Part shown: piece after piece, positions 2,286 to 38,109 of the stretch
Layout of the letters: the number at the start of each line of letters is the position of its first letter
How positions within the stretch are numbered: position 1 is the first letter of the stretch
Notes under the pieces: model-generated
The model's input: only the letters and a program-made list of their open reading frames with translations
Told to the model about the DNA's origin: nothing
Database searches by the model: none
Assembly: GCA_004123355.1 (NCBI GenBank)
Contig: SCHM01000005.1
Location: 186,001-250,000 of the forward strand
Source of the DNA: Amphirosellinia nigrospora
Lineage: Eukaryota > Ascomycota > Sordariomycetes > Xylariales > Xylariaceae
Reading direction: 5' to 3'
Length of the DNA stretch: 64,000 bases
Program-made: the position numbers and the translations under genes

Positions 2286-4370
2286 ATGCCTATACACAGC
2301 ACGCTTCCTGAAGACTTACGTCAAGTTGATGTCATAATCGTGGGCGGTAAGCCGGCAGTGTCACAATTATACTTTTTCTATGCGTGGGAACTAAATGTTT
2401 TTATACAGGTGGTACAGCAGGCTGCATCGTCGCCTCCAGGCTAGCCGACCAGGATCAAGACATCTCAATTTTAGTCATCGAAAGTGGTTCCAATAACCTC
2501 GATGTGCCCGTTATTACTCATCCCGCTTTGTACCGAGCGAACTTCGCACCGGAGCATGGTAATACGGTGACTTATACAAGCAAAAATCACAGCTCCTCCA
2601 TCGGGATGTTGACGTTACTGTCGGTGGCTGTCTGGGTGGCGGCTCATCTGTGAATGCGATGATATACGCTCGCCCTCAAGCTGTCGATTTTGATTCTTGG
2701 GGGTTCAAGGGCTGGACTAGCCGTGAATTAATGCCGTTCTTGCAGAAAGTAAGCTATTGACGCATTTTATTGAAAATGGTTTATTCCCTCTATCCTGCCA
2801 TATTTGCCTGGTGATGCTGATACGGAATGCGGTCAGCTTGAGACATTCCATTCTCCAAATAGCGGACAGGCGCACGGCTCAGAAGGCCCGATCCAAGTGT
2901 CCGCTAATAGTTTCCCCGGAGATTCTGTTAAGAGAGATTTTATCGATACGATGACGCAATTGGGCTATCCCGAGGTGAATGACCTGCAAGACCTTCATAA
3001 TGCGAATGGCGTTGCCCAGGCCTTCCGATATGTGTCCCCCGAACATGGCAAGAGGCAAGATAGTGCCCACAGATACTTGCACCCACGAATCCAACAGGAG
3101 GAGTTTCCAAACCTCCACGTTTTAGTCGAATCGCAGGTCACTCGACTTCTTGTTGGTGGAAATAAAAACGTCGGGGGCGTCGAATACAGATCAAACCCTC
3201 GGGTTTCGAAGGAAACGCCATCCGAGTTGCTGCAAATTGTCAAAGCTAGGAAGCTCGTTATCGTTTCAGCTGGTGCATTTGGGACACCTCTTCTCCTCGA
3301 AAGGTCGGGTATTCGGTGATAAGGGGTTCTGTGGAAAGCTGGAGTGCGAGCGTCTCACCATCTTCCTGGTGTCGGCTGTGACTTTCAGGATCATCAGTGC
3401 ATCCCGTTCGCATATAAATCGGGCTATCCACCGGGGAGCACCTTTGAGAGCATTTACAATGGAACAAGAAGTATTCCAGATTTGCTGGCAAATGATGATC
3501 CCATACTCGGCTGGAATGGAGTGGACGCCTCGGCTAAGATTCGGCCCACCGAGTCAGAAGTCAAGTCAATGAGTCCTGCTTTCGCAAGCGCTTGGGAGAA
3601 AGATTACAAGAATGTTGCAAGCAAGCCACTTGCATCCATGATCTTCATCAATGGGTATGGAAAGACTACGAATTTGATGCTTATTCGTATTAACCTTCTG
3701 TTAGAATCTTGGAGACCCAACTCCTTTTCCGAAAGGCGAGTACTTCACAATAGTTGCCTATACTACTTATCCTTACTCCCGCGGTCATGTAGTAAGTGCA
3801 AAGCTGGCTCATAGCTTGCTTGATGCGCAATATCGTACTCACTTGTGTTAGCATATCACTGGACCTCAGATCGACCAGCCCCCTGATTTCAAAACCGGCT
3901 ACCTGTCTGATGACGATGATCTCGATTTGGAGATTCAGCTATGGGCTTACAAGAAGCAGCGGGAGATAGCTAGCCGTATGGCGAGTCTCGCGAGCGAAAT
4001 ATCGGATCAACAACCGTCTTTTCCTCAAGACTCAAAAGCATCGTTGAACTCGCGCATCAAAGACTCGCCCGCAGGCGAAACTACTTTCGAGTACTCTAGA
4101 GAGGACGACGAGGCAATCAAGCACTTCATTCGTGGAAAAGTGGGAACAACGTGGCACCCACTAGGGACTTGCAAGATGGCGGCACTTGAACAGATGGGTG
4201 TTGTAGACGAAAGGCTGAATGTGCATGGCATGGTAGGTCTGAAGATTGTTGATTTGAGCATCGTCCCTAAGAATGTGTCTGGAAATACGATGAACGCTGC
4301 TTTGCTCGTTGGGGAGCGAGCTGCAGATATTATCATTGAGGACTTGGGACTAGATGGCCGCTCAGTGTAA
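2286..4370 (+). pseudogene. GMC-family FAD-dependent oxidoreductase, frame-broken
   Basis: This gene encodes a glucose-methanol-choline family flavoenzyme that would oxidise an alcohol-type substrate using FAD. The ATG at 2286 opens a short exon ending in VDVIIVG. An intron at 2347-2408 splits the Rossmann motif GGGTAG. Further family blocks are GGCLGGGSSVNAM (about 2620), DFDSWGFKGW (about 2690), GAFGTPLLLERSGI (about 3275), LPGVGCDFQDH (about 3360), the catalytic GTTWHPLGTCKM (about 4145) and VSGNTMNAALLVGERAAD (about 4275), where the second catalytic position is Asn. Other introns lie at 2749-2836 and 3792-3851. A few frame breaks interrupt it, so it is non-functional as read. Full family length, about 560-600 residues, is covered. 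It lies 2.4 kb upstream of the PKS start and probably belonged to that pathway. Confidence 0.8.
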
Positions 4371-4470
4371 TGGTGATTCGAGCACAGGAGCAGGGCAAGA
4401 GACTATAGTTTCACGCATTGTGTTGATTGTAGTATCATGATGCACTTGATTATTATATAAGCTGAGTTAC

Positions 4471-5226
4471 TTATGATCTGACAGCTTTTCTCGGTCTTCG
4501 GGCCGTAAATAGCAAGACCATGCCCACAAGCCTCGTCTCAACCTCTAAAAAATCCTCTTTCAGTGCCCTCCACGTCCTCTCTAGTATCACACAAGTTGCT
4601 GAATGAGCCTGCAAAGTTGAAAAATTGCAGAGTTAACCATGCAAGGCGACCAACTACATAGTCCTTTCCTAAAATAGTGCATCCCGTCAACACACCATCT
4701 TCACTCAACACATTTTTATAAGTAGATATCGCTCGCCACTTATCAGCCCCTCCGGGGACGCAATGGAAGAGGTTGAACATGGAGATAGAAGTGAAAGATG
4801 ATTCCTTCAATTCAGAGGGGAGAGGCTTTCTGATGTCTGTGCTCACGCATTGGATGTGAACATTCGGTGCGAGGCTGAGTATGTTGCTTCTAGCAGCCTC
4901 GAGCGAGTTGGTGTTCAGATCAACGAGTGTCAGATGGTAGTCACCCTTCTCGAGCTGTTGTAGAGCGACACCGGGAAAGTAGCCGTCCGCTACCCACAAT
5001 CAAGATGGCGAGTCGTGAAACCATCGTTGAAGTGCGGTACAAGGACTTTTTGAGGGTCGCAAGCCCACAAAACAGGGAAATTGAACTTGAGGACATAGAG
5101 CCGATACAATTTCAAGAAAAGGGGGGTATACACGCCGGAGCCGACAGCAGCTCTTTGGCCTCTGAAGATTTCCATGGGTATAAAGGTTGGGAGTTCGGTC
5201 AGTGAGCCACGAGGGTAAAAGGCCAT
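4471..5226 (-). pseudogene. Class I SAM-dependent methyltransferase, frame-broken
   Basis: This is a small fungal class I methyltransferase that would transfer a methyl group from S-adenosylmethionine, probably to a cluster metabolite. It reads from an ATG at 5226 (MAFYPRGSLTELPTFIP). The N-terminal YTPLFLKLYRLYVLKF and HLDCG segments match the start of this family. The SAM-binding region follows as DGYFP and LTLVDLNTNSLEAARSNI, then SISMFNLFHCVPGG. The C-terminal strand VGMVLLFTARRP is visible just before a stop at 4471-4473. Frame changes occur near 4990 and near 4550, both at single-base runs, with no substitution-type stop codons. It is transcribed away from the PKS across a 1.6-kb shared upstream region, an arrangement common in metabolite clusters. 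Confidence 0.72.
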
Positions 5227-6803
5227 AGTCGATTCACATGATAGCCTCCAAGTTCTTTATAAAATCCCGACGTTGCACTTCTCCCTCAACTTGTGTGATT
5301 GACAATATATAATGATCAAGCTACCGATTTGAGACAGGTCAAAGCCCAACGCAGCTTCTCACCTCACGAAACGGCCACAAGCAGTGACATGTCCACATGT
5401 TTCTTGGCAATATAAAGACTCTCATGAATGTGACACTTCACATGGCAGCTTATGGCAGTGGTTCCACAATACTTCTATTATCAGCTGACTGCATAATGCA
5501 AGTACCATGCAGTAACGCTACGGAGATATCAGTAATATTGGTTTTACAGATGCGAAGAGAGACAAATCTGACTACAAGAGGAGGGGCAAGCAAAGATTTA
5601 AACGAGACAGGAGGCCTGCATTGGCTAACGTATCGGACACAGCGCGGCGAGGATCCTTGCTGTACTACGTAGCTAGAAAATATAGAGCGCCGGATGAGCA
5701 ACCGGATTAGGCATCGGAAGATTTCGCTTGGGGAAGTCAGATCGCGAAGTTGTAGCTGTATGTCAATCAAAATTCGCTCATGGGCGCGGTTCGAGCCGCA
5801 AGGATGCATGGTGGATGGTGGCATAGGCCAGAATACGTGACATCTTTGTGTCAGTGGCATATAGTTGGCATTTGCCGTCGGCACGCTCCTGATCCTCCCC
5901 GCGAAATCCCGTCTCGCGATGCATCCAATCTCTTGTCGCCACATCCAGGATCTGGAGCGTGACGAGTAGCTTCATCGACTGCCCGCCTTTTGGAATGTGG
6001 TAACAATGTCGGTACGTTGGAGCTGTCACATTGCATTTCCGCATTTACCTTATCAATTGGTGATTCAAGCGTCGTATAATTTCACCGAGCCCTATTACAA
6101 CCGCAAGGGTTACACCAAACTCCAAAATCGCCATCTTGAAGTCGTATTGATAGCCCTATTGAGAACTGAAGGAATGATGTTACATTGACCCTCCTATAAG
6201 AACTGGCGGAATCGGCTCTTGCATGAGACCATGCATATTGAGACACGGAGAATAAGGAACACTTCCCGATGCGCGTTGCTAGAGTTTTGGACGAAGAGCA
6301 TGCCACGGAGTAGCGTTGTGTTGTATTATGACAGCGTAATGAGCTGCGTACAGTTAACGCACAGTACATGAGAAATTAAAAGGTTTTTCCATCGGGCGAA
6401 TACACACATCCCATAATCCTGATCCGTATCGCCTGAGAGGCAACTTCAGGCTTTCTGGATCAAGCTATGAACTAGTCTTGGGCAATATGAAACGGGTGAA
6501 AGTGGAATGGTAATAAGTGTCCAGCATCTCAAAAGGATGATCTAGCTTGGAGAGTATTGCTTTAAGATCAGTAATAGTATTTCCTAACATGTGCTAGTTT
6601 GAGACCAAGGATAACTTTCAAATAGCAAAGCTTTTGTCAATAACTATTATGAATATTGTTTAGAGTACAACCTTTCCATATATATAACTTCCCCAGCCTC
6701 TCTTCGCAGTCTGCATTCTTTTGTAGCTCAGATTTGCTCATCACATTGTAGTCTCTGAGCCATTACCGCCGCTGTGCTGTAAGAGGTCATAAATCACTAC
6801 ACC
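5227..6803. other. Divergent upstream region between methyltransferase and PKS
   Basis: About 1.6 kb separates the two divergent genes. It has open frames of up to 164 codons on the minus strand (5450-5944, 5778-6044, 6082-6369), but none shows a recognisable domain or consistent coding signal, so they are not called as genes. The right end carries the PKS core promoter. Confidence 0.5.
6679..6687 (+). promoter_or_regulatory. TATA-like box upstream of the PKS
   Basis: TATATATAA lies about 117 bp upstream of the PKS ATG and is followed by a pyrimidine-rich stretch (about 6688-6724), the usual fungal core-promoter layout. Assignment rests on position and composition only. Confidence 0.4.
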
Positions 6804-9564
6804 ATGTCACCGTTGATGGATCCTATTGCAATCATTGGCTTTGCTTTCAAGCTCCCTCAGGGTGTTGTTGATGAAAGCGACTTGTGGAGACTCTACTCGG
6901 TCGTAAAAACCTTATGACTAGTTGGCCCGATGATCGCGTCAATGCGGCTGGCTTCTATAACTGCGGAGTGGAGGGAGGGAATATGGTTTGTCGGCCCCTG
7001 GGTTGCACGTTTTTTGCATTTCATGGCTAAAATGCAAATAGCTTCCTACTCGCGGGGTCATTTCGTTACTCAGGACCCCGCGTTTTTGATGCCCCTTTCT
7101 TCTCCATCACTCCCGGTGAGGCTGCTGCAAGTAAGAAATTTTTATCTGTATAGGTATCGGCATAGAATGCATTTACTGTATTGTTCTTATCCCCGGCGTT
7201 TTCGCTCGAATGCTATATCTTTATTTCTGTGTCAGACAATAACTGTCGTGACAGTGGATCCTGCACAGCGTTGGGCATTAGAAACATCGTTTCGGGCCTT
7301 TGAGAATGGTAAGAATCCGTAACATGGAGCAAAGATTTTGTGATTGACATTCATAATACAGCTGGAATGCCACTTGCCAAGTTGAGCGGCTCCCGTACAG
7401 CTGTTTTTGGTTCCTGTATGTCTGATGACTATAAAACGATGCTGCTCAAAGACCCCCAACTGCTGCCGCGTACGGCAGCCACGGGTGCAACTCCTGCTAT
7501 TTTTGCGAATAGAATAAGCTGGTATTTTAATTTGACAGGCCCAAGCGTTGTTGTTGACACAGCTTGTTCTGGAAGCATGGTCGCTCTGGATCTTGCCTGT
7601 CAATCGTTGCGAAATGGGGATGCCTCAATGGTAAGTCAATCGCTCTAAAATAACTCAAACGACGCTGTATCACTCCGAAACTGATCATAACCGAGTTTCA
7701 TGAATAGGCTTTGATCACTGGGGCCAGTCTGTTGCTTACCCCTGAGTCGACGGTGATCTTGGGTAATATGGGCTTCCTTTCACCAGATGGTTGTTGTTTT
7801 AGCTTCGATGAGCGTGCGAACGGTTATGCACGGGGAGAAGGTGTGCTTGCTATGGTCATTAAACCTCTCTCAGATGCTGTTGCAAACAACGACATGATCA
7901 GGGCAGTTATACGTTCGACTGGTACCAACCAGGACGGTCGTACGCCTGGTTTAACTCAACCAAATCCTACCTCACAGGAGGACCTCATCCGCCGTGTCTA
8001 CGCTAAAGCAGGACTCGATCCAAGTTTGACTCGTTATGTAGAAGCGCATGGTACGTGTTGAAGTTCTGTGGAAGACCCCAAAATCGTTCATGAACACCCT
8101 TTGTTGTCTGTTAATATGTTGACTTGTTAATGTCCATATACAGGCACTGGTACTTCCGCCGGAGATCCAACTGAGACTGCTGCCTTACTTGGTGCTTTTG
8201 CAAACTACCGATCACATGACGATCCCTTATACGTGTAAGTTCTCTTCACATACCCAATTGATTGCTTCTTATGGTCTTGCACAGAGGTTCTATCAAATCC
8301 AACATCGGGCATCTTGAGGGCGGCAGTGGTCTTGCTGGCATCATCAAGACCATTCTTGTTCTTGAAAAAGGTGTCATACCGCCCACCGCACTGCTCGAGA
8401 AAGTCAATACTCGCATTGAAACGAGCTCCGGTGCACTTGTAGTAAGTTCTCCGCTTGGCGTAAGTGGCGGCAAATCTGACTATAAGAAGTTTCCAAAAGC
8501 ACCTGTGCAATGGCCTGTGAGAGGCATCCGGCGAGCGTCAGTGAACTCGTTCGGAATTGGTGGGACTAACTCACACATTGTTTTGGACGCTGCCTGCGAG
8601 TATCTCCACACTCACGGTATCCTAGGTTGTCATTCATGCCGCATAGACAATCATAAATGTGCTGACATCAAATCAAAAGACATCCCAGATGCTGGTCAGA
8701 CAACCAAACTCCTCGTCTGGTCAGCCTCCGACGAAAGCGCACTCATTCGCACACTCAAACAGTACGAGGAGTATTATAATTCGTCTATTCTGGGTGACTT
8801 CCACAAGCTCGATCAACTGACGTATACTCTGTCTGAGAGAAGGAGTCATATGACTTGGAGAGTTTGCGCAACAATTAATGCCGGAGAATGTCTTCGAGTT
8901 AGCGATATCCTTACTGCGACAAAACCAACTCGTTCGTCGAAAGGCAATTCCCTCGCTTTTGTCTTCACGGGCCAGGGAGCACAGCACGCCAATATGGGGT
9001 TAGAGCTATTACAATATCCAGTCTTTGGCCAAGCCCTTCAGGAAATCAATCGCATCTACGCTGAGCTCGGGTGCTCTTGGAACTTGATTGGTGTGTACAA
9101 CTCAACCCGAGTTCTAAAGGGTTAACAGACTGATCAATTTCATGATACAGATGAACTTCGTAATCAAGATCACATAAACTTGCCTGAATATAGCCAGCCT
9201 TTATGTACAGCTCTACAGATAGGCTTGGTTAAACTACTTCGGAAATTTAGCATTACGCCAGCAGCCGTCGTGGGGCATTCATCTGGCGAGATTGCTGCCG
9301 CGTAAGTCACTGAACCACGCGATGAATTGCATTATAACTAATTTTAGGCTACTAGTTACGCAGCAGGGGCTCTTTCGGAAAGAGCCGCTTGCATAATTGC
9401 ATATCACCGCGGTCAACTAGCGGGCAAGTTAGTAAAGTCAAGCACCGTCCGGACTAATATGATGTCAGTAAATTTACGAGAGGAAGAAGTCTCAAGCTAT
9501 CTTGCTTCAAACCCTCAGTGGCCAGAAAGTGTCAAACAGGTCCAAATTGCGTGTGTCAATAGTC

Positions 9565-9572
9565 CTATCAAC
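9565..9572. repeat. Left 8-bp target-site duplication (CTATCAAC)
   Basis: These last 8 bp of PKS coding sequence before the element match CTGTCAAC on the far side with one transition. In the AT domain this is the codon region for N-S-P-I-N, and the frame resumes with C-T-L-A-G after the right copy. Confidence 0.75.
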
Positions 9573-9735
9573 TAGGGTTCGGAAATGGGTACCCATAGGT
9601 ACCTACGGAAAACCCATAGGTTTTCTAAGTACCCAAAAAAACCCATAGGTTTTTTTTAATAAGTTAACCTATATATTTTAACCTATAGGTTTTTTTAAGT
9701 ACTTAGAAAAACCTATAGGTTTTTTTAAGTAAGTT
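9573..9735. repeat. Left subterminal palindromic repeat array of the transposon
   Basis: Several copies of the near-palindrome AAACCYATAGGTTT occur within about 160 bp of the left end, next to TACCCATAGGTACC. Subterminal repeats of this kind are typical transposase-binding sites in hAT elements. The binding role is inference. Confidence 0.55.
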
Positions 9736-12700
9736 TTACTTACGACTAAAAGTAAATATAAGCAATATTAAATTAAAAGCAAAGCTTATTTATAATTAAC
9801 GTTAAAATTTATCGATTAATTGTTTATTATAGCTATAATTATTACGCAAATATATACTAATTTTTATATTAATCTTAGAATAAATCCTAGCAATAAATTA
9901 AGCAAATATATATTCGAACTTATTTATTTTTTGCCTTGTATTGTTTGTTGCTGCTAAATTTTTCGGTTTTTTGTTTCGAGCAAGTTTTAACTAAGCTTAT
10001 GCTTTTTTATTTTTTTTTACAGTAGCTTTTGCAGCAATTTTTTCGTCTATTTTTATATAACTTTTAATAAACGGTAATATTATAATAAAAAAATAATTAA
10101 AAGTTATAAAAATATTAATATTAAAATTTAAATTATTCGTATAATAATAAATACTAAATAAATATTTTTAAACATAATATAATACGTTTAATATATATTG
10201 TTGTAAAATATGCTGCTAAATAAGCGAATTAATATATAAATTAATATAATATTAGTATAAAATATACTAGCTATAAAAAATATAATAATGCTTTTAAAAG
10301 CTTTTATTAAAGCTATAATAGTAAATTTTTAAATATAGGCGTTAAACATATAGCTATATAAATATTTTTTATAATACGGATAAAAAGTGCTTTTTTAATT
10401 AATAGGACTAAATATAAATTATTTTAGAGCTGCTAAATTTCTTGTAAAGCTTTATTTAAAACTAAATTAATATAATAAATATAAATATACTTTTTAAATG
10501 CTAACTTTTTATAGCACTAAGGAACTATTTAGCTAGTTTTTACTTGCTATTTTAAGCGTAGGTATATTATAAAATCCTAGTTTCTTAACTAGTTTTCGAA
10601 CTTTTTATATATTAAAGTTTAAAAGCTAAAAGCTTGTAAGGATTTTTATTAGCTATAAAAATTATTTTTTGCTTGGAAAAATATTTGTACCCGGTTTTAT
10701 ATTTTTAGTTTTTTAAAGGTTATTTATATAATGAAATTATATACCGATTAATATATAGAAAATAAATTTAAATTAATTATTTAAGATTTTAGCAGTATAT
10801 CGGATTTAGTAGGACGACCTTTTATTGTAACCCTTTTTTTTTAAGCATTAAAACTTTTTTCTATAGCTTTTTTTTTTTTAGTACAAAAACCTATTTTAGC
10901 AAATAACTATATAATAAAATTAGTATATAAATTAGTATATAAATTATAAATTAAAGCATACTTATTAGTTTGCTTATTTATAGCTTTTTTTATTACTAAA
11001 TTTTTTTATTAGTTTAAAAAAAGTTTATTTATAGTACTAAGACCTGTATATACTAGTAATAATATTATTTATTGTTTCTGGCTTAGTATTTATTATAGCT
11101 TTATTAACATATTGTTTAAAGCTATTGCTATATTAACTTTTAGTATATAATAAAATTATATTTTTAAATAGATTAAAAAGCTATTAATTTAGTAGTAAAC
11201 TTTTTTAAAATAAATTAATTAATATTAATATAAAATAGTTAGCAAATAATAAATAAATATATTATTAGCTTTAAAAAGTTAAATTTTTAAGCTTTTTTTT
11301 TAGTTGTTTTATTTTTTTTTAGCGAAGTTTAAAGTAATAGGGGTTCTTAGCGCTTTTATTTGTAAGCTTTAGCTTATTCTTTAAACTTTGCTAAATTTTA
11401 AAATTATTGCTTTATTGCTACTACTGTTTTTTTGTTGTTTTTATGTAACGTTTATAGTTCTTTTATATTTAATTTTTTAAGCTTAATATATGCTTAGTTG
11501 ATTTAATTATATAATTAATATATATATTAGTATATTTAGGCTATATTTATAAATTCTAAATATTTTATTGTTTGTTTATTTAGATTTATATTATTTGCCC
11601 CGCTATTTTAATAGCTGCGGAGTAACTATATTGATTAATATAATAATTAATATAAATATTTTAGTTTTTTATTTATTACTATTTTAGTTTATATAATAGG
11701 GCGATTAATTTTAATTAGCTAAAAATTTAATAATAGTTAGATTTAACTAAAAAAATAAAAAATTAATTAAAATTAAATATATAATAAAAAGTCCGACGAA
11801 AATTTTAAGTATAGTAAAGAGTTAATATATACTATATAAAAATAAAAAATAGTTATAAAAATTAAAAATAATATAATGCGAAAAATATATAAAAGTTTTT
11901 TATATAATAAATAAAAACCTATTTTTATTAAAAAAAGTAAATCTATACTTTTTAAAAAAAAACGTTTTTTTAAAAAATTTTTTTTTTGCTTTTTTATATT
12001 TTAAAATTAATATATAATTATATATTTTTATACAAATATTGTTTAATTATAAGTTTTATTTACAAGAACTTTAATATATTATATATTAATAATTAAAGTT
12101 ATAATAGTTAAAAAAATTATATTATTTAGCGGCTTAATATTATCCGTACTATTTTTCGGGCTAGTTCTAGTAAATTTAGGTTAATTTAATTCTAACTTTT
12201 TGTTTTTTTGTTTTTATAAAAAGTAAAATTCTGTATAATAAGGTTCTATATAGCAAAGTTTTATATAAAATCGATCTTTAGTATATTAAAAATAAGTTTT
12301 AAGATATATATTTCGATTTATTTTCGAAATAATCGGCAGGCCGAAAACTAATATTTTGCTAGCGCTAAGAATATTTTATAAACTAAGATTAATAATCGTT
12401 AAAATATCCGTATTAAAAAAAAATAATTATATAGGTTTTTAGGCTATTTTAGCTGTATATTTTATTGTTGTTTTTTTTTTTATTTTTTATTAAATAGTTT
12501 TTTATTTAAAAGTATTTATATATAAAATAATTAGTAGCGCTAGTATATAATTTCGTATATATATAGATAATATAAAGTAAGCTTGAAAAATACTAAAAAT
12601 AATTTATTTTGTTCGGGGTAATAAATATTATAAGTAAATAATTATATACGTTTTAGCGTAATAAAAGCTGCTTATATAAAAAGTATACTTTGTATAAGCG

Positions 12701-13670
12701 TTATAAGCTTAAATAAAATATGTTTAATAGTTTATTAGTAGTTTAACTAATTTAACTAGTATAATATACTATATATTTTTAGTACTAATTATATTTTAAA
12801 AAATAATATTTATAGTATAATAAGATTTTATTAATAATATATTATATAATATATAAATTATTTAATAGTTATAAGCTTTATATTTAAATTAGTTAAAATA
12901 TAAACATTAAAATATTATTATATTTTATTAGGACTAGATTATAAAAAGATTATTAGTTCGTTTAGATTAGCTAAAGTTTATTATTATATTTTTTTTATTA
13001 ATTATATTTTTATTAAAACGGATAGTATATATGTTTTAGCAAATTAATAGCGTATTTTATATTCTATTTGTTATTATGTTTATATATAAATATTTTACTA
13101 TTTATTAAATAGTTTATTAAGCTGTATAAAAGCTCTAAGACTAAGCAATACTACTAATATAAAAATATCTTAGTTATTGTTTTTAGTTTTTTTAATATAT
13201 TTATTAAGCTTTTTTTAACCGAAATTGATACTAGTAATAAATTTTTTTAATATACTTTTATTACGGTTGTTAAATATTATTTGCTGTGCTTTTAGCTATT
13301 GTTTATATGTTATAAAATATTTTTTTATAAATATAAAGCTAGTTAATATATAGCTTATGTAGTTTTATTTAAAAAAGCTAAAAATATTAGTAAGCTAAAT
13401 AAAATACGAAATAATACGCAATAATATTTAATATAAAGCTATATTGTGCTATTAATAACAAACGTAGCTAAAAACTTTTTAATAACTTTTTTGATAGCTA
13501 GTTGTAGTTTTTGTACTTTTTATAATATAAAAATAATTAAGTTTTAATAGGTTTTAATATCACGAACTATTGATAATTAAGGTATTAAACCTAACGATTT
13601 TTATATATTTTTAAACTGCTTTTAGTAGGCAATATTACTTTAAATATATGTTACTAATAATCGAAACTAT

Positions 13671-13715
13671 ATTAATTAGTATATTAATTAATATATTAAT
13701 TAATATATTAATTAG
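13671..13715. repeat. 12-bp tandem repeat inside the AT-rich element
   Basis: About 3.7 copies of ATTAATTAATAT in tandem, the first with one G. It is probably a by-product of AT-rich decay and slippage within the transposon. Confidence 0.6.
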
Positions 13716-16700
13716 ATTTAAAAAATACGTACCCTTTTTATTATATTACCCGTAATATTTAAACGGTATATTATTTCCTTATTTTTTATTTATTGTTCGT
13801 ATATAAACGTAGCTTATTTGATAGTTTTAACGCTTTATTAACGCCGATTTTTTTTAAAATATCGCTTAGTATTAATTAATAATATAAAAAAAGCAAAAAA
13901 AGTAAATAATATAAATTTTTTAACTAACTGTAATATTTAATTAATGCTAAATAAAGTTAATATTAAAGCTAGGTTTATTATCGTAAATATATATTTAAAT
14001 ATTTATATAAAAATTATATTTTTTTAAAAAACTAATAATTTGTTCTATATTAATATTTACTTGTTTAAATATCGCTAGATAAATATTAATAAAACGTTAT
14101 TATTACTAATATTTATCGATAAAATATACTACTACTTTTTAATAATATTCCGATTAGCTAGAGTTAATTTATATATCGCTAGTAACCCCGATATTAAACT
14201 TAGGAACAATTCTGTTAAGCTAGTATTAAATATAAAAATTATTATAAATGTAGTATATAAACAACTTTTTCCTATAAAATAGTAGCTATTTGTTACTAAA
14301 CGATATAATTAATATTTTTATATTTTTATTCTTAGTAAAATTAAACAAATAGTTTTTTAAAACCTAAAAACAAATAAAATACCGGTTTTTTATTAATATT
14401 ATTTACTATCGGATAATATATAATTAGTATAAATAAAATATAATATACTTTTGCTATATTTAGCTTTTAATTAAAATATTATTTTATAACCGTTGCTTAT
14501 ATTTTTCGCTAGCAAAATAAATATATAATAATCGCGTGCTGTTTAACTTTAAATATATAATATATATTAAAGCAATACTATATTTTTTATAGATTAGTTT
14601 TAGCTTTTTAATATTTATTTTTACGCTTTATTTTTAGTTATCCTAACTAGCTAATATTTGGCTATTTATATTCTATATTTTATCGATTTTATAAATATTA
14701 TTTTTTATTATAATATATATTTCGTATTATTTTTTCGATCGTAGCTATTTTTTAAATGTTTTATTTATTATTATTTAATATAAATATATAAAAAGCCCTT
14801 ATAGTTAAAAATAAGTTTTATTGTTTATTTTTAATATTTAAATAATATTTTTTAAGTTCGACGCTATTAATAGATTTATTAAAGCTTATATAAATATTAG
14901 AACTAAAGCAGCTAAAATATTTATTAAAAATAAATAATAAAATATTAATAAAAAATTTTCGATATTTAATATAGTATATTTATCGAGTTAAAAAAAAAAA
15001 ATAATTAAAAAGTAGCCTAAAAATTAGATTATTATTATTATTTTCTAAAATAGTTTTAGTTTAATAAAATAATAAACTTTTAATAATAAAATAATTGTTA
15101 TTATTAATTATAATATTTAAATCGTTTTAAATAAACTTTAAAGCAATAAAATTTATTATAAATAATAATAATAGTAATACGCTTTAATAAAATATTATTA
15201 TTAAGCTAGCAAAATAGTAAATTTTTTTAAATATATTAATCTATATATTTGTCCTTTTTTAGCGCTATTAGTACAATTATTATTTTCCTATTAAAATAAA
15301 CTATATAAACGCTATAATTTTTATATTCGCTTTTCTTTTTTTTATTAGTTCTTATTTATTTATTTTATTATATTTCCTTTTATTTAATTATTACTAAGTC
15401 TATTTCTTTATAGCTTAGTATATAATAGCACGTAAAAATCTTAAAAACGTTTAACTATAATATTAAAAGAATATTTAACGAATTTTTTTTATTAATAATA
15501 GCCGACCTATAACCTTTTGTTTATTTTTACTTTAGCTCCCTTTTTATATACTTACTTGACCTTGCTTTTTTTAAGCTTTTATTAGTATAAAAAATACCAA
15601 ACGGATAAAAATATAGCTTAGCTAATTTAGCAGTTATTAAAAACTAAAAAAAAAAAAAATATATATACGAAGGGCAGTTAACTAGAAACGCCGGTAAAAG
15701 CTAAAAAATATTAATTTGCTTAATTAATATAATAATTAATATATTGTTTATTTTGCTCTAGTTAATATTTTATAAAAAATCTATAAATACAACAAAATAA
15801 TAATTTATTAATCTTTTGTTTGTTATTCGTTTAATTTATAAAAAAAATAACTATTAAAATAATAGCTAAAAAATACTAATTTTAAAAATATTATTAAAGC
15901 TTTATAAAAAATAATAAAAGCTTATTTAATAAAAATATTTGCTTATATATTTTTTTTTTAGTTTTATAACTTAAATATTAATTATATATAAATACTAACT
16001 ATTATACTATTTACGTAAAACATATTATAATTACGCGCTTTAATATTTAATTATTAAAAAATCTTAGCCGAAAAATAAATATTCTTTTTATATAATAATA
16101 ATAATTAAAAATTAAAAACTTTAAAAAATTTTTAAAAGTATATCCTAATTAAAAAAATAATAAATTATATAAGCGGTAAAAAAAACAGCGGACTTATTTA
16201 TATATATTTTATATTATATATATATATTCGTATTACTTTTTTTTTTTAATAATATATTTTAGCTAATTATTATATTTTTTTTTTATTTATAACCTTTATA
16301 ACTTTTATTGGTTAGCCCTTCCCTAAAGCTAATTTTAATCGGTAAGTCTAGTTTTATAATTTTTAACTATAAAATCTTACTATATATATTTATTTTTTTT
16401 TTTTTATTATATTATTTACCTCTATATTTAATTATTATATTTATTTTATAATTTTATTTTATTATATTAATTTTATATTAATTTTTTGCGCAAATAGTTT
16501 TTAAACGTTTAAAAAAAAAGTTAGCTAATATAGCTACGCTAAAACGGCGTAAAAAAAAATCGTAGTTATCGAATAACTTATATATATAAAAAGCTTGTAT
16601 GTATATTTCCCGCTTACCCAAAAGCTAAAAAGCTTATAAAAAAACCTTACTATTATTAAGCGTTAGATTAAATATAAACAAGAAAATTAGCGAAATAAAA

Positions 16701-18319
16701 ACTTAAATATTATTTTAAAAAAAGTTAAAAACGTATATTAGCTTATTATTAAATAAATTAACAAAAACTAATATATTTTATATTAATTTTATATTAATTT
16801 TTTTTACTAACTATTATAACTATTAATTATAATAAAATAAACATTTTAATTAAATTATTGCTGCTTATTATATATATTATTTTTTTAGCGCTTTTAATAT
16901 AATTAAGCTAGCTATAAATATCGATTTTAATAATAAAAATCGCGATTTTTTTGTTCGTTTAAACAATAAGCTTAAAATTATCGATTTAAACGAAAATAAT
17001 CTTAATTATACTTATTATTTTATAAAAAATATTAAAAAAAAAAATATAAAGTTTTTTAAGCTATTAAACTATATTTTTAAATTCGCTTAAGAATAAACTT
17101 CGATTTTTATTTTGTTTAATTTTAATATTTTAATTTTTAATTAAAAATATATTATTTAAAACTATTATTTCGAAATAAATATTTTTTTAATTAATATATA
17201 ATTAGTATATATTAATAGTTTTTAAATTATTTAACCTTATTATTTTAAACCTTTTATTAATTACTTTTTATATTTTCGATAAAAATAAATATTATAAAAA
17301 TTTATACTTTATTAAACGTATATATTAAAAATCTTATTAATAATTTTAAAATATACTACTTATATTCTTATAATAAGTACTAACGAGCTTATATTAAAAT
17401 ATATTGCTATTTTTGCTTTTAATAACTTTTTTATTAATTTTTTAAAAATCGAATTATAATTATATAGCGTTTAAAAAAACGCTTAAATTTTTCCTTTTAA
17501 AACTTTATACTTTAAAATTAAAGCTTTTTAATACTAACTAGTTTAATTCCGAAATTTTATTTATTTTATCTTCTAAACTGCTCGGTTTTTAAAATTTAAA
17601 TAAAATAGAATAACTATTAGCTAAATTTACCCTAAATAAAATTACGCTTACTATAATTTTTACGTCGGATAAACTATAATTTGCCCGTTTTTTTTATTTA
17701 ATTTTTTAATAATATTAAAAAGTAGCTAATTTATTTTTTGCTTAATATCGAGCTATTTAACCTGTTTTTATTACTAAATAGTATATTATTTTTATTTAAT
17801 ATATTAATCGGATATTAATTTATATAATTAAAATAAACTATAATTTATCCGGTATAAAATAAAACGCTATAACGTTATTTTTCCTTAGGTCTTAAAGCTC
17901 CTGCTTCTAGTTATTTATAGTGTTCTTATTATTTTTAGCATATTATAAGAAATTTTAAGCTTTAAATATTTAGTTTTAAAAATCTTTTTAAGCTAACTTT
18001 TATTTATAATTTACTTAAGTTAGCTAAACTCTAGCAATTTAGCAATAAAAAAATACTATATAGTTCTAAGTTAAAATATTTTCTTGCTTTAATGCTAGCT
18101 TTATATAATATATTTTATTTATTATATATATTAAACAAACTATATATTATTCCTATATATTTTTTGTGCATTTTATTAAAATAAATTAATAATAAAGAAT
18201 TTTATACTGCCTATAGTTTAATTAATATATAATTAATATAATTAACTTGCTTTATATCCTTTTATTCTGTAATACTTTAATTTTATTAATTTTTATTAGT
18301 ATATTAGTTTAAAAAAATC

Positions 18320-18485
18320 TATATAAGTAATATAAGTACAAAAAACCTATATAAGTAGCATAAATACAAAAAAACCCACGTAGGTAACATAAGCAAAACC
18401 CATAAGTAAAAAAAAACCCACTATGCCCACATGGGTTTTCATAGGTTCTGGGTAAATGGGTTTTGGGTAAAAAATCCAAACCCTA
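18320..18485. repeat. Right subterminal repeat array of the transposon
   Basis: Repeated AAAACCCA / TGGGTTTT words (for example CCCACATGGGTTTT and AAATGGGTTTTGGG) and AACCTATA / ATAGGTT words lie within about 165 bp of the right end. They mirror the left-end array and support one element spanning the block. Confidence 0.5.
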
Positions 18486-18493
18486 CTGTCAAC
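18486..18493. repeat. Right 8-bp target-site duplication (CTGTCAAC)
   Basis: Copy of the left CTATCAAC with one A/G difference. PKS coding sequence resumes directly after it. The single transition could be RIP damage or drift. Confidence 0.75.
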
Positions 18494-21400
18494 TGTACCT
18501 TGGCTGGACCTGAGGAGGCGTTGTTCGTAATCCAAAAACAACTCGAGCGAGACGGCATCTTCGCGCAGAAACTCAGTACTGGGATAGCCTACCATTCCGC
18601 CGATATGCTGGTCGTCGCAGCCGAGTATCTTGAGCTTCTTTCGTATCTATCATCCGATGTCCCCACGGAGGCTACTGATATTTCAATGGTTTCGTCAGTA
18701 ACTGGGGAAGTCGTCCTACCCCGGCTTCTAGCAGAGCCTCAATATTGGGTTAATAATCTAGTTTCCCCGGTGCGATTTTCAGATGCCATGCAGGTATTTT
18801 CCGATCTTCCAGATAGCGTGTTTCCTAGTCGTAGGGCTGTGACCGATATCATCGAGGTCGGTCCTCATCCGGCCTTACGTCGCCCCATCCACGACAGTAT
18901 CCAGGCTTCTTCATGGGGCAAGGGAAGGGTTATACCAAGGTATCATTCTCTGCTGCACAGGAATAAAGGTCAGATGCGAACATTCCTAGGCACCATTGGT
19001 CAGATGTTTTGCCTTGGCTATCCCGTTACTCTATCGACTGTTGATCATTTGGATGACGCCGCTACACTTTTAGTGGATTGTCCTCAGTATCCTTTCGATC
19101 AGTCACTGCGTTACTGGAACGAGCCCAGACTCAGCCGCAATTCCAGGTTACCCAAGGGGCAACCGAACGCTTTGCTAGGGACTCGTTTCCTTGACGAAAA
19201 CCCTCTTCGCCCGAGCTGGCGGAAATACTGAAGCCTGAATCTATGCCATGGCTGAGAGAGCACATTGTAAGTTTCACTTGAAATAGCTAGAACAGTCCGG
19301 TTTTACTTACAATGGCTGATCACAGGTAAATGGTCTCCCCCTTTTCCCCGCCTGGCGTTCTGGTCATGTCGGTGGAAGCTGCGAAGCAGCAATTGCCCCC
19401 GGGTGTTCGAGCTCGCGGTTTAATCATCAAAAATGCCCAATTTGTCAATCCAATCATTATAGACGATAAGGCCAGTCCTACCGAAATCGTGCTTTATTTG
19501 CGGCCAGGGAAAGATACCAATGCACGACAGAGCTTGTTGTACGACATACAAGTGTGTGCTTATTATGACCACCGTTGGTCGGAATCCTTCACAGGTCAAA
19601 TTCAGGTGGATATCTATCAAGACATGAGTGAAGTAGATGTGGGAAAAGAGTCCCGCTTTGAGTCAACGCGTATGTCCGAAGACTACCACGAAGCCAGAAT
19701 AGCAAGCAATAAAGGCGTCAATCGACAAAGATTCTACGAGTTTACGGGGGAAGCTGGCCTCAATTATCTGAAGTCATTTCAGCTGCTGCATGACATACTT
19801 TGGGATGGTCATGTTGGCGCAACCGCGACTATTCGTGCGGCACTTGATACATGTCCCTCTACAGTCAATTTTCTTCACCCAACAGTCATGGACGCATCTT
19901 TCCAGCTAGCTCTAGTACCTATATCGGGTGGGCTATCAAGGGATATTGACTCCCTTGTTCCAAGTCGGATAGAAAAAGTATGGATCTCTGCGGATGGTTG
20001 GAATACCAAATCCGCTAATGTGTCAGTGGCGACCAGAGCCATGACAGGGAGGAGGAGTTATACTAGCAACATCCGCATCATGGACCATGAAAATCAACCG
20101 CTCTTCGTGGTAGACGGCATACTTATGACAACAGTAGCTGAAAAACGGGACACAAGAATGGAAATTTCTTCAAAACTGCTTTATGGAATTGACTGGAAGC
20201 CGCAGTTAAGTCTTTTATCGCCAATGCAGTTACGCCAAGTATGCCGCGACGAACCCGCAGCAGATGACGATCCCAATCACCGAAAGTTCTTCGCCAATAT
20301 TGAATCAGTTTTGATCATCTCCATTCGTCGGGCATTGCGTCGGATTTCTAACGAACAGTTGCTTTCGTTTCCACCGCACTTGGAAAGATATGTTTCTGCC
20401 ACCCAACGCTACCTGACAAAACAGTTCGATTCGTTTGACCGATGTGAAGATGAGTTCGATCATTTATTGGAACGATGTGAAAGAGAGCGCCCGGATTATA
20501 AGTTGGTGACTACAGTCGCACGAAACTTACAGGCACTGATTGAAAGCCGTCTGAATCCCCTGGAAACGTTTTTCCATGATGGGCTCGCAGATCGGTTCTA
20601 CGATTCGGCATGCCAATCAATCTTCAAACCCGACGTCAGGAAGTTCCTGGAACTAGCTTCACACGAGAAGCCAAGTCTCCGCGTTCTTGAAGTAGGTGCC
20701 GGAACTGGATCGATGACGAAGCAGGTCCTTGAAATTGTACAAGATTTAGAAGCACGGGATGGGACATCAAAGTTCCTAGACTATACTTTTACAGACATCT
20801 CGCCGTTATTTTTCAAGGCAGCTCGTGAGAAGTTTCAGACGTGCGAGTCGAGGATGATCTACAAAAAGCTAAATCTAGAATCTGATCCAGTGCAACAGGG
20901 ATTTGAAGAAGCAACCTTCGACATCATATTGGCTGATAGCGTGTTCCACGCTACATCCGACCTCGCACGCACACTACGCAACGTTCGAAGACTATTGAAG
21001 CCTAAGGGATATCTGATGTTTATTGAGATAAATCCGTTGGCTCACTGGATGAATATTATATGGGGCTGCTTCCAGGCTGGTGGCTATCTCAAGAAACATG
21101 GCGACTAGAGTCGCCGCTTGCCACTGAACAGCAATGGAACGACATTCTTCACGATACAGGATTTTCAGGTAATGATCTTGTTATTCGAGACAGCGAGGTA
21201 CCTTCTTGCCATGTGTGGAGTCTACTCATCACTACGGCGGTAGAAGAAGGTACAGCTGCTTTAACTTACCCCCAACCTGATCACAATACAGTGCTAGTCG
21301 TGGATCCCGAGTCTGCGGTACAGCATTCCATCGCGAAGAGGATTATAGCGCAGCACGGTGGAAGCATAACGCATCTTGCTGAGGCTTGTTGTATGAGCTG

Positions 21401-24158
21401 GACAGACGAAACTACGATGGTTTCGCTTCTTGAAATCGAAACCCCCTTTCTTGCAAATATGTCAGAACGGGAGTTCTACCAGCTAAAGCAACTAATGTCG
21501 AAGCCTCACGGGATATTATGGGTATCTAGTTCTCAAACCGACGATCCCGGCTTCCCACAATTCAACGTCATGACTGGCTTCTTCAGAACTCTCCAGTCCG
21601 AGTCGCCGTGGAGAACATTTGTGACGCTATTCATTCAAGCTTGCGATAATACAAAACCTGACAGCTCTGCAGCCTATATCTCTCAAGTCTTACGAACAGC
21701 AATCTACGAGTCAAATACACCCGAAACCGAATTCATTGTCCGTGACGGAATGATCACGACGGGGAGACTCATCAGAGAGCAAAGAATAAATGAAATTATG
21801 AATAATCTCGTCTCGCCCAGACTACATGAAGAGCCTTGGGGGTCAGGGTCACCTGTCAAGCTCGAAGTCGGCACCCCCGGAATCTTGGATACGCTCCGAC
21901 TAGTAGATGACTCTGAGTTCTATCGTAGCCCTCTCGCTCACGAAGAAGTTGAAATCGAGCTCAAGACTTGGCCAGTCAGTTTTCGAGACCTAATGATTGC
22001 GTTAGGTCGCCTGGAAGGAGAAGACGGACTTCTCGGATTGGAGTGCGCTGGAACAGTGACACGAGTCGGTTCGGCATGTCCCAACCTTGAACCTGGGGCG
22101 CCTGTCATATTGATGACGCCGGGTACAATAAGAACGTATCCCCGTGCCCATCAGAAAGCCATTATAAGAATCCCGGGCTCCCTGTCGTTCGAGGATGCCG
22201 TCTCCGTGATAAATCCTGCGATGACGGTCTACCATGCACTTAAAAATCTAGCGCGACTAAAAAAGGGAGAAAAGGTTCTGATACATTCCGCGTCCGGTGC
22301 TACAGGACAGATGGCAGTCTTGATTGCACAGTGGATTGGGGCTGAGGTATTTGCCACTGTTGGGTACAATCACAAGAAAGATTTTCTCACACGCAAGTTG
22401 AACGTCGCAGAAGATCATATATTCTGCAGCCGGGACCTCTCTTTTGCCAAAGGTATTATGCGAATGACGGGAGGCCAAGGCGTTGACGTGATTCTTAACT
22501 CCCTATCTGGCCAAGCGCTGCGAGCAACTTGGGAATGCATTGCATCGTACGGCAGATTCATCGAAATAGGAAAAACAGATATCCTGACTAACGCATCGTT
22601 GCCTATGGGTCAATTCCGAGGGAATGTTAGCTTCTTCGCTCTTGATATCCAACATATCTCGCAAACAGATCTTGATCTAACTCAAGCGCTACTGAAGTCT
22701 GTCATGGACATGCTCACTAAAGGGATCATCAAGCCACCTCTACCGACCCGCGTCTTTCCTGCCCAGAAAATCGAAGAAGCGTTCAGGGAAGTCCAGAGTG
22801 GGAAACATACGGGCCGTATTCTGTTGACTATCAACGACCACCCCGTGACGGTATGGCATATTAAAACGGCTTTTTGAGTATCATTACTAACTGATGATTA
22901 AGAAATTCATTCGCGATGTGCCGACATGGAAATTGGACAGTAATGCTTCGTATGTGATTGCAGGGGGTTTCGGCGGCCTCGGGAGGTCTATCATCAAGTG
23001 GTTAGTCACGAAAGGCGCCAAACACCTTATTGTCCTGTCACGTACCGGCACATCCTCTTCAGCGGCGGCCGTTGAGCTCGCTACCAAGCTCCGTACACAG
23101 GGTATCCGGGTCGCAGCACCAAACTGTGACTTGTCGTCGCCCACGATAGTACGCCGAGTACTGGACGAGTGCTGTCGCACAATGCCCACGGTCAAGGGGT
23201 TTATCAACAGCGCGAACAATCTACAGGTAAGTTTTCGTAGCAGTCAAGACTCGACGATTGGAAAATCGAGGCTTACATCATTTACCTTTATACAGGATTC
23301 AATATTCGACAACATGACTTACGAGCAATGGGATCGCACCCTACGTACCAAGATCTCTTCCTCTTGGACAATTCACGAACTTTTGCCTCGGGATTTAGAC
23401 TTTTTTGTTTTGCTCTCGTCGATTTCTGGCATCCATGGGATACCATCTCAGAGCAACTACGCTGCTGCGTGCACATACCAGGATGCCCTAGCTCGTTACC
23501 GCGTCGCCCATGGCCAGAAAGCTATCAGCCTGGACATTGGCTGGATGCGCTCTGTGGGCATTATATCAGAAAAGGACCGATATCTACAGACTTTCCGCAC
23601 TATGGCACACATCAACCCGATTGAAGAATGCGAACTCTTGGCGTTACTCGACATATACTGCGATCCAGCATTCCAGGCACATAATGAGTCAAAAGGTCAG
23701 CTAGTGATCGGTGCCATGACAGCAGCGGATGCCATATCCAACGGAAAGAAGCCAACGCCTGATCTCTTACGCCCGCTTTTCTCAGGCTTCTCCGCCCTTC
23801 CCCTGGATCTGAAAACACACTGCTCGAGGCTACTCTAGAGGACCAAACGGTTCAATTCCAACATGCGAAAAGTCCAGCCGACAGGCTCCAAATAGTTACC
23901 CAGGCCTTGATAGGAAAAGCCGCTAGATTACTCAACGTCGGCCCAGAAGACATCAAGGACGATAAATGTCTCTCTGATTATGGCGTGGACTCATTGATTG
24001 CTGTCGAGTTACGAAATTGGATCTCGTACGATTTCAGAGCGAGTGTAACCACTTTCGAGATCTTAGGTGGAAAAGCGATAGCTTCTCTGGCGGCATCTAT
24101 CGCAGAGACGAGTCAATTAGTTGCTGACGTCCAAAGTAGTGAAGATTCGATCACCTAG

Positions 24159-31417: not shown

Positions 31418-31507
31418 GTTCTATAGGCCTACAGGGCCTACTATACAACTTTACTATCTATATTATATTTTTGGTATATTTAAGCTACGTATACGATATA
31501 TTATTTT
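31418..31507. repeat. Left LTR core of the retroelement fossil
   Basis: This 90-bp stretch aligns without gaps to 38020-38109. By hand I count 14 differences, all transitions, and in 13 of them the left copy keeps C or G where the right has T or A. The full LTR probably runs from about 31406 to 31535. Confidence 0.7.
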
Positions 31508-34500
31508 TACGCGTTTATTTTTATATAAATAAAAAGAAAATATTAGCTTTAAACTAAACGATTATAAATATAATACGTAGTAGAAAATTATCTAAAAATG
31601 CTTTTAGTATAGAATATAAGAACGAAAACCTTGGCGAAAAACTTTATATTTAACCTGTTTTTACTAATTTTAAGTACTAAAAACGTATTAGAAAACTTAT
31701 TAGCTTAGCTATTAATAAATAGCGATTAATAATAATAAAAATTCGATTGTAATTTTAAATATTATGTTTTTAAGAACGCGCGTTAGTTTACCGAACTTGC
31801 AAAAAACGGGCTAAAGCTAATACGGCAAAATAATACTTTTGTTAGAAAAAAATATATAAAAGCGTAAATTAGTAGTACGTTTACGTTGCTTCGAAAATAA
31901 TAAAGCTAAAAAAAAACTATAAATAAAAGGCGGCTATAAACGGACACTTAAACGGACTAGTAAGCGCTAGTAAAGCTAAGTTTTAAGTTTTAAAAAATCC
32001 GTAAATATTTTTTTATTATAATAAAAATAATAAAAAGTTTTTAATATTAAGCCGAAATATTTTAATAATATATAAAAATAAGCTAAACTTAATAAATTTA
32101 ATTAAATTATAAACAAGTAATTATATATTAACGGTAATTTTATAGCTATATATAAACTAAACGACCGGTTATTATAATTATTCTAGTAATAAAGCTAAAA
32201 TTATATAGCTTAAATATTAGTTTATAAATATATTGTTTTATAATATATATAATAATTTATAAATATTTATTCGAGCATTATATATATAATACGTACGATA
32301 AATAAGTTTACTTGCTAGATTTTAAGCTAGCTATAATATATAATATCCGGGCAGTTTTTAATTTATAGCGAGCTATATATAGTTTTTTAATATTATTTTT
32401 TATAGTGCCGAACTATAAATAAAAAAAATTAATTATAAAAGTTAATTTTTTTACGCTTTTAATTTAAAAAAAAATAAAAACGTTCTATTAGAACTATTTA
32501 TTTAATATAAAAACAAAAAGTAAACAAAATAAAGTTTACTATTGCTAAAACAAATCGAATTATATTTATAATATAAGCTTAAAGCGCTATTATTATAAAT
32601 ATATATATAAAATATAGCTCCGAAAAATATAAAAGCCCGGCGTTAAATATAAAATAAAAAATAAAGCTAGTAGAAAAATAAATAATATTTATAAAATGCC
32701 CGAAATATAATTGCTAGCTTAAAAAAAGCTAGCTAGATATTTTTTTAGTATTATAGTAAAAAACGGCTTTATTTTTAAAGCTAAAATAAAATATTTGTTT
32801 TTTTTTTTAAATTTTTAGTAAAAAAACTTTTTTTAAAATAATTTTTATTTTTTAATAGCAGATAAATAAAAAAAAATATTATATAACTATTTGTTCGGTT
32901 TAAATAAAATATTAGCGAATATTTTTTAGTTCGGTATATATATTAGCTATAATTTAAAACTATAGCTTAAAATTTCTTTAAATTTAAAGTTTACTAACGT
33001 AAACTATATAATAATTAAAACTTAAATTAAATAAAATTTAACTTTTTATCGGATAATTATAATTAGGCCGGAAAAAAAGCTTTTAAGCTTTTTATTAAGT
33101 TTAGTTTTAAAATTAAACAAAAATTAGCAAAAAAATATTATTTATTATACCCGATAAATAAATCGGTTAATAATTAAATATAGTCCGAATTTAGAACGTT
33201 AAAATATATAATAGTTTAAAATTTATTTAATATAATTTATAAAATAAAGCAGGGTTTATATTTAATTAAAAAAAATTTAAAAAACGTGTTTTAGATTATT
33301 TTAATAGTAATATTATAGTAGTAGTTATTTAAGTTTACGTAAAAAAAGGTTTATTATTATAAAAACTGTTTATTATTTAGTTTATATATAATATTATATT
33401 TATTTAACTTTTTTGTAAAAAGTTTTTATTAGCTTTTATAAACTATATTATAGCTAGTATAAATAGCTTATTATTTAAATAATTTTATTTATTATTCCGC
33501 CGAAAAAATTTTTTTAAATAAAAAGCGTATATTTTAAGTACGGCTATTTAGTAGACGTTTTAAATATAATTTAAAACCCGAAAAAAAACAACAAAAATAT
33601 ATATTTCGAGCTTTTAAGGATTAAAATCGATATAAAAACAATAGTAGTAAAGCTATCCGAAGCTAAGCTTTAAAAATAGTCTATTTAGCAGAAAAAATAT
33701 TAAAAATATTATTTATTTTTTACTATAATATCGAATATATAATAAGCTATTTAAGCTTTTATTAATAGTAGTTTTATTTAATAAAGCGTTTTTAGTAAAC
33801 TTTTAAAGCTTATTAGCTTATTTTAGCTTTTTTTTTTATTTATTATTATAAAATATAATAGCAGATTTATAATAATAGCGTAATTTATTAAATAAGTTTA
33901 ATAAAAAGTTTTTGCTAGTTAATTTAAATAAATTATTGTTTTATTTGTTTATAAACGCGTTAAAATAAAATTCGGGGGCTTTTAATACGAAGCTTTTTTA
34001 TCTAAAAAAAATTAAATTAAAAATTTCTTAGTTTTAAAAAATTAAATATATAACTAACGTTAAAAAAACGAAAAGCCGTTAATATATATTAATACGGCCG
34101 AAATTATAACGATTTAAATTATATTTTATTATTAATAAAACGTTTAAGCGTTATTATTATTATTTTATAATAATATAATAGCTAAAAATAAGCTTATTAA
34201 CGTATTAACGTAAAATTTATTATTAAACGTTATATAAGATTTTAATTTTAATAACTAATAAAAATATTTATTTTTAAGTCCGCTATATAATTTTATTAAA
34301 AAATAGCTTTATAAATGTTTATTATAGTTTAATATTAAAATAATTATTAATTTATATTTATTAATAGAACTTTTTATAAAATATCCGCTAGATAGCTTTT
34401 AATAATAAATAGCTAAAGTAATAAATAACCCGGATTATATCTAGCTATTTTAAACAAACGTTATAAAATAAATTTACCGAACGTACGAATTAGCTATTAA

Positions 34501-36089: not shown

Positions 36090-36900
36090 TAACGTATTAC
36101 ACAAGCATCCTGCACATACAAGTAAGCTGCACACTTAAGCTTGGCATTTTATTAAAATTATAATAACTTTACGAAACTAAGCCTAATCGGGCGATAATTT
36201 TCAGGGCTAGTATATAACTATATATAGTATATAGATATAATTTTTTTAATCTTTTACGCTAGCTTAATAAGGTTATAAACCCCGGTTTTTAAAGTAAGCT
36301 AAAAATAAAGCTAAAATAAAATCTTAGTTAGTACTAGCGTATAATTTTATTTAAAATTTCAAAAAAGTAAAATTAGATTTAGCACGTTTTTTATATTATA
36401 TGTATTTTTTTCGAATTCTTTAAGCTAGGTTTAGTATTTCTTTTTATTTTTTAAAGTATAAAAAATCAATAAAAAGAAATAAAAAAAAATAAAAAAAATA
36501 AAAAAAATAAAAAATAATAAAAAAAATAATATTTTATCCTTTAAAAAATAAAAAGAAATACTAAACCTAGCTTAAAAAATTCGAAAAAAATACATATAGT
36601 ATAAAAAGACGTGCAATCTAATTTTATTTTTTTGAAATTTTAAATAAAATTATACGCTAGTACTAACTAGGATTTTATTTTAGCTTTATTTTTAGCTTAC
36701 TTTAAAAACCGAGGTTTATAACCTTATTAAGCTAGCGTAAAAATTAAAAAAATTATATATATACTATATATAGTTATATACTAGCCCTGAAATTATCGCC
36801 CGATTAGGCTTAGTTTCGTAAAGTTATTATAATTTTAATAAAATGCCAAGCTTAAGTGTGCAGCTTACTTGTGTGTGCAGGATGCTTGTGTGGTACGTTA
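36090..36900. mobile_element. 811-bp fold-back / MITE-like element nested in the LTR fossil
   Basis: Two long inverted arms of about 360-370 bp (36090-36458 and 36538-36900) flank an A-rich spacer of about 80 bp. The ends read TAACGTATTACACAAGCATCC and, inverted, TAACGTACCACACAAGCATCC. The arms are nearly identical and keep GC-bearing words such as CTAAGCCTAATCGGGCGAT that have vanished from the surrounding block. No coding capacity is visible. The structure is that of a fold-back or MITE-type non-autonomous DNA element. The target duplication is ambiguous. Confidence 0.7.
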
Positions 36901-38019: not shown

Positions 38020-38109
38020 GTTCTATAAGCTTATAAAGCTTACTATATAACTTTATTATTTATATTATATTTTCAGTATATTTAAACTACGTATATAATA
38101 TATTATTTT
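38020..38109. repeat. Right LTR core of the retroelement fossil
   Basis: Direct repeat of 31418-31507, with T/A at nearly every position where the two differ. The full LTR probably runs from about 38008 to 38130. It marks the right side of the insertion. Confidence 0.7.

Follow-up and report, generated by a model that had tools for sequence, protein, structure and literature searches.

What is the 8.9-kb AT-rich segment that splits a polyketide synthase (PKS) gene in the fungus Amphirosellinia nigrospora, and why would it carry remnants of histone genes? The window analyzed here, i.e., the whole stretch of 64,000 nucleotides from contig SCHM01000005.1 (assembly GCA_004123355.1, positions 186,001 to 250,000), belongs to contig C7 of a 48.1-Mb genome and contains this segment at positions 9573-18485. 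Judging by comparison with related copies, it is very probably, in both identity and history, a copy, inactivated by repeat-induced point mutation (RIP), of a recently active 9.0-kb cut-and-paste transposon of the hAT class. The element has four predicted genes, which code for a transposase, two histone H3-like proteins (H3La and H3Lb), and the product of a gene referred to here as gene A.

Family copies, RIP-type decay, and the transposase

The window copy (8,913 bp, GC content of 0.16) lies on the minus strand relative to the orientation in which the TTTGGA end of the element is at the left. Comparison of copies placed its 8-bp target duplications, CTATCAAC and CTGTCAAC, at 9565-9572 and 18486-18493, immediately outside the element, so that the boundaries are exact to the base, as the original prediction had claimed. 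The single mismatch between the two duplications is a transition that fits a CpA-to-TpA change on the minus strand. The 11-bp terminal inverted repeats are TAGGGTTCGGA at 9573-9583 (plus strand) and, inverted, TAGGGTTTGGA at 18475-18485 (minus strand). The subterminal stretch adjoining 9573-9583 is mostly self-complementary in the window copy and in the unmutated copies described below; within the final 200 bases at the right end of the element, positions 50-164 agree at 91% with their own reverse complement.

The end sequence TAGGGTTYGGA alone is weak evidence, with 88 exact sites in the genome versus 61 for the reversed pattern. Nineteen end pairs chosen by this pattern, and therefore carrying it at both ends in every case, were examined: 9 long ones (7.4 to 9.0 kb) and 10 short ones (248 to 343 bp), the latter being miniature inverted-repeat transposable elements (MITEs). 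Every one of the 19 has TTTGGA at one end and TTCGGA at the other, which gives the element a polarity. The 8-bp duplications are perfect in 14 pairs, differ by one mismatch (each time a transition) in 4, and are absent in 1 (L022), whereas none of 342 control cross-pairings between copies had fewer than three mismatches. Other copies with the same ends, which were to be looked for according to the original prediction, have thus been found, 18 of the 19 with duplications showing no or one mismatch. Searches with the two ends returned a further same-strand pair at C4:6474147-6482930, as well as three wide same-strand pairs, C1:6383545-6398652 (15 kb), C4:4574789-4631515 (57 kb), and C4:4909396-4935543 (26 kb), that may represent nested insertions.

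Three long copies (L010, L015, and L016) have a GC content of 0.419 and differ from each other in 53 alignment columns, mostly by short indels. Compared with L010 over 8,856 aligned bases, the window copy shows 2,239 C-to-T or G-to-A changes, 5 changes in the reverse direction, and 44 transversions, with mutations at 87% of the CpA, 62% of the CpT, 45% of the CpG, and 39% of the CpC sites. By this alignment, the mutation spectrum is of the RIP type, and the window copy is otherwise nearly the same element as the unmutated ones. The same pattern is seen in L009, L011, L013, and L014. For 500-base windows, the composite RIP index is positive inside the element, negative where they start at 5501-9001 or 18487-23487, and once more positive at 23987 as well as from 31001.

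Two of the three nearly unmutated copies, L015 and L016, reside on the 1.33-Mb contig C9, which contains none of the other six long copies examined. This contig could be a RIP-poor accessory chromosome, perhaps in parallel to Fusarium poae, in which mobile elements on supernumerary chromosomes escape RIP. The remaining long copy, L012 (C4:9815933-9823368; 7,436 bp), is a divergent AT-rich relative with 52% identity and 1,537 transversions over 6,696 aligned bases. It was counted among the 19 end pairs and excluded from the five RIP copies; none of the four element proteins gave a tblastn match to it. Its TTTGGAC end recurs in 9 of the 10 MITEs, and L012 may be a decayed relative of the element that gave rise to them.

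Gene models were built from GT-AG exon borders predicted in the unmutated copies, read in the orientation that puts the TTTGGA end on the left. The plus strand encodes the transposase (5 predicted exons, 959 amino acids) and H3La (8 exons, 468 amino acids), and the minus strand encodes H3Lb (at least 3 exons, 128 amino acids or more) and gene A (5 exons, 496 amino acids). In the window, the transposase remnant spans 12099-15156 on the minus strand with 73 premature stops in the 928 codons compared, and the H3La remnant spans 9924-11682 on the same strand, with 26 stops in 448 codons. On the plus strand, the H3Lb remnant, whose N terminus is open-ended, occupies 15611-16095 (at least 3 exons, 10 stops in 127 codons), followed by the gene A remnant at 16494-18179 (32 stops in 484 codons); the transposase, H3La, and gene A remnants retain 5, 8, and 5 predicted exons, respectively. 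Among the three unmutated copies, the frame is open in one for the transposase and in two for each of the other genes.

The class assignment is based on the 8-bp duplications and on this predicted transposase. The latter contains the hAT dimerization domain (Dimer_Tnp_hAT, PF05699; 39.9 bits against a cut-off of 21.4), and a search with a 499-residue part of it gave only 4 PDB matches, all of them hAT transposase chains (best E value, 4.6e-5). The region of the catalytic glutamate aligns with that of Hermes at 23 bits; the alignment of the first-aspartate region is weak (-4 bits), and the region of the second aspartate was judged by eye from known motifs. Duplications of 8 bp are also found in Zisupton-type elements, and a large element with extra genes might instead belong to another class of large DNA transposons, KDZ or Starship. 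Against such an assignment stand the dimerization domain, which scores above the Pfam cut-off, and the hAT identity of the PDB matches; moreover, no Pfam match to KDZ or DUF3435 was detected in the four predicted proteins at an E value of 0.1, making this option extremely improbable. The hAT class, originally proposed from the duplications, is supported by a domain found where the original prediction suggested looking, in the less mutated copies. The accompanying statement that no transposase is readable holds for the window copy and fails for the family. Gene A had no Pfam match reaching the cut-off and no PDB match at an E value of 1, and neither H3Lb nor gene A had a relative among viral contigs.

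Histone H3-like genes and the paired motif

Both H3La and H3Lb carry what is, by profile matches to PF00125 (71.2 and 117.1 bits, respectively), an H3-type histone fold, and among PDB chains they are closest to H3 and H3.Y (for H3La, in a search with its 209 C-terminal residues). H3La additionally has about 290 N-terminal and about 75 C-terminal residues. Sequence identity between the two proteins is 38%; with host H3 it is 47% (H3La) and 55% (H3Lb), and with the host CENP-A-like protein 46% and 53%. In both genes, a phase-1 intron lies two residues before ALREI and another phase-1 intron lies six residues ahead of the isoleucine of IHAKR; the introns inside the H3 fold are 47 and 53 nucleotides long. 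The host H3 and CENP-A-like genes show no break at either place, and their visible introns are located elsewhere. Since the introns are common to H3La and H3Lb and missing from host H3, recent intron-less copying of host H3 can be excluded as the source of these copies. The simplest reading of the alignment would be duplication, within the lineage of the element, of one intron-bearing H3 ancestor; two captures from an intron-bearing source are possible.

Exons of H3La or H3Lb in the three unmutated copies account for 12 of the genome's 25 histone-family matches; RIP copies escape detection in this search. A broken H3-like sequence is also found outside the hAT family, at C9:388467-388919 (L033 and L051); across the 68 residues that can be read, its identity with host H3 is about 71%.

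The second unusual feature is a paired motif. For the pattern TGTACTAAT-N2-4-TGTACTAAT, 62 exact matches were reported across the 48.1 Mb, versus none for the reversed control. By position, 54 matches fall in the three unmutated copies (18 in each), 6 are in MITE-sized copies, and 2 lie beside a single end match; all 62 being in or beside family copies, this is a family-specific cis motif. When one mismatch per 9-mer was allowed, L010 contained 19 pairs, and each of 20 first-order Markov controls contained none. The predicted exons of L010 make up 6,163 of its 9,023 bases and yet include none of the 19 pairs; at least two exact 9-mers in gene orientation occur in 10 of the 17 predicted introns. 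Start-to-start spacing of the paired 9-mers in the long element is 11 to 12 bp. In the window, the 19 paired sites, mostly decayed to TATATTAAT-like pairs, span 9853-18241 with no strand assigned. Under a RIP-tolerant rule, 16 pairs were recognized in the window copy (control mean, 0.03) and 15 to 18 in each of the five RIP copies, the window copy included (control means below 0.1, maximum of 1); the single pair in L012 did not exceed the control maximum.

The pairs could be merely doubled splice branch points of the introns of the element. TACTAAT resembles the branch point of yeast, and 12 of the 19 pairs in L010 are in predicted introns in the orientation of the gene. However, 3 pairs are in introns in the reverse orientation and 4 are outside predicted introns (one of these, just before the start of gene A, may be in a leader intron), and no pairs occur in the rest of the genome, family copies apart. 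In addition, a pair is found under the RIP-tolerant rule in 7 of the 10 MITEs, which have no genes; this points to a possible cis role in mobility. Splicing as the sole function of the pairs is therefore unlikely, although pairs located in introns may double as branch points.

An analogous question is whether the H3-like genes are passive passengers, captured as a host H3 transcript or gene (transduplication) and riding along. A transposase alone should suffice for hAT movement, each H3-like fold is nearer to host H3 than to the other H3-like gene, and capture is the published reading for similar elements, as proposed for Pseudocercospora (Dhillon et al. 2019). Against this reading stand the introns of the two genes, whose positions match each other and have no counterpart in host H3, the long extensions of H3La, and the H3 frames, each of which is open in 2 of the 3 unmutated copies despite strong divergence. 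Passenger status is accordingly conceivable but falls short of being probable. Because of the readable two-H3 copies, the matching introns, and the paired motif, we favor the inference that H3La and H3Lb are old residents of the element rather than a recent capture.

Several observations weigh against the picture of a functional four-gene transposon with resident H3 genes. No single copy is open in all four predicted genes, the exon borders are predictions from sequence, the catalytic residues were judged solely on short motif matches, and mobility itself is deduced from sequence. The greater similarity of each H3-like protein to host H3 than to the other would also fit two captures. Further, the first common intron adjoins a 3-residue length difference, which makes its match less firm, as the alignment there depends on gap placement. 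The broken frames in the unmutated copies are suspected, though not proven, to be due to assembly errors: the only canonical-looking H3 gene found (L028; C4:3290684-3291147) reads in several frames, and uncorrected indels are therefore suspected in the assembly.

If the element is indeed a hAT transposon with resident H3 genes, its transposase would move it and probably also its 0.25- to 0.34-kb MITE relatives. The two H3-like proteins, as standing genes of the element, might enter nucleosomes and act on its chromatin, possibly affecting expression, access of the transposase, or shielding from silencing; such a role is put forward only tentatively. The paired 9-mers would serve in cis as putative binding sites for a protein of the element, the simplest candidates being the transposase and the product of gene A. 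Combining these suggestions, one could imagine an element with its own chromatin kit, in which two dedicated H3 variants, one of them with the N-terminal tail of about 290 residues, act together with 19 paired sites per copy that are scattered outside the exons, have a spacing of about one helical turn, and are retained in most MITEs. They would package and mark the DNA of the element, thereby controlling its expression, its transposition, or its exposure to RIP and silencing. This is a speculative and, as a whole, improbable scheme. With the readable two-H3 copies, proteins, introns, and cis sites become available for direct tests and for comparison between fungi, which turns the question of whether transposons use histones of their own into an experimental one.

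The insertion site and its surroundings

By its Pfam domain pieces, the interrupted host gene is a reducing PKS, encoded on the plus strand. The end of the ketosynthase and the first part of the acyltransferase domain are located at 8262-9572, and the rest of the acyltransferase, followed by dehydratase, methyltransferase, enoyl-reductase-like (a zinc-dehydrogenase match in Pfam), and ketoreductase pieces, is at 18486-23835. Positions 2-38 and 48-98 of the acyltransferase profile PF00698 match to the left of the element and positions 159-314 match to its right, which bears out the predicted split of this domain and indicates that the insertion is inside it. The further proposal that the locus dates the loss of the pathway to a single insertion is not established, because the PKS has other candidate lesions and the assembly probably contains indel errors. 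One candidate is an additional in-frame TAA at 9123-9125, which a very short intron could also contain; the other is a change of frame near 19230, for which an intron, a lesion, and an assembly error are all possible.

Upstream of the PKS, GMC oxidoreductase pieces and a methyltransferase-like piece (2774-4999) perhaps belong to the same gene cluster. A second AT-rich RIP-type island (31439-38109; GC content of 0.13 to 0.22) carries a direct repeat of 69 bp (88%) at 31439-31507 and 38041-38109 and is possibly a decayed long terminal repeat retrotransposon; none of the four hAT-element proteins matches it. At 60265-62663, long open reading frames that contain tandem repeats, each of roughly 40 residues, look like a TPR-type fungal NLR protein.

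Relation to known hAT elements

The transposase is only distantly related to that of Hermes (PDB 6dww and related chains; 25.7 bits): the alignment of the C-terminal region covers 64 residues, and there are very weak alignments at a D-x-W-T and an R-W-N-S-T stretch. To our knowledge, no histone genes are associated with Hermes.

Fungal hAT elements with H3-like genes are already known. Manning et al. (2013; PMC3538342) described one in Pyrenophora tritici-repentis, and Dhillon et al. (2019; PMC6710886) described such elements in Pseudocercospora fijiensis and five further members of the Mycosphaerellaceae. The H3 genes inside fungal hAT transposons have been attributed to the chance capture of a housekeeping gene. 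As in these elements, a hAT transposase and H3-like genes lie here between the same inverted ends. The Pyrenophora element shares with the present one a hAT dimerization domain, inverted ends, an H3-like gene, and an extra unassigned open reading frame, and its copies, like the unmutated ones here, show little effect of RIP; however, it is about 5.6 kb long, with one H3-like gene and a 2.3-kb derivative, compared with 9.0 kb, two H3 genes, and 0.25- to 0.34-kb MITEs here (PMC3538342).

The Mycosphaerellaceae elements are closer in size (about 9.5 kb), contain one or two H3-like copies each, and likewise combine a hAT transposase domain with 8-bp duplications and RIP decay. They differ in their inverted ends (20 bp, or 18 bp in C. 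zeae-maydis, versus 11 bp) and in copy number (hundreds versus about ten 9-kb copies) (PMC6710886). The paired motif, intact two-H3 elements, and common introns were not found in the accessible portions of the open-licence literature on H3-carrying hAT elements. As described in PMC6710886, the Mycosphaerellaceae H3-like copies are all RIP-broken and are read as intron-less captures, although a 16-residue insertion in one of them might, at a guess, be an unspliced intron. The present family, compared by description only, includes three nearly unmutated copies with two different intron-containing H3 genes. Thus, the apparently new features, relative to these elements, are the readable two-H3 copies, the matching intron positions in both H3 genes, and the paired motif.

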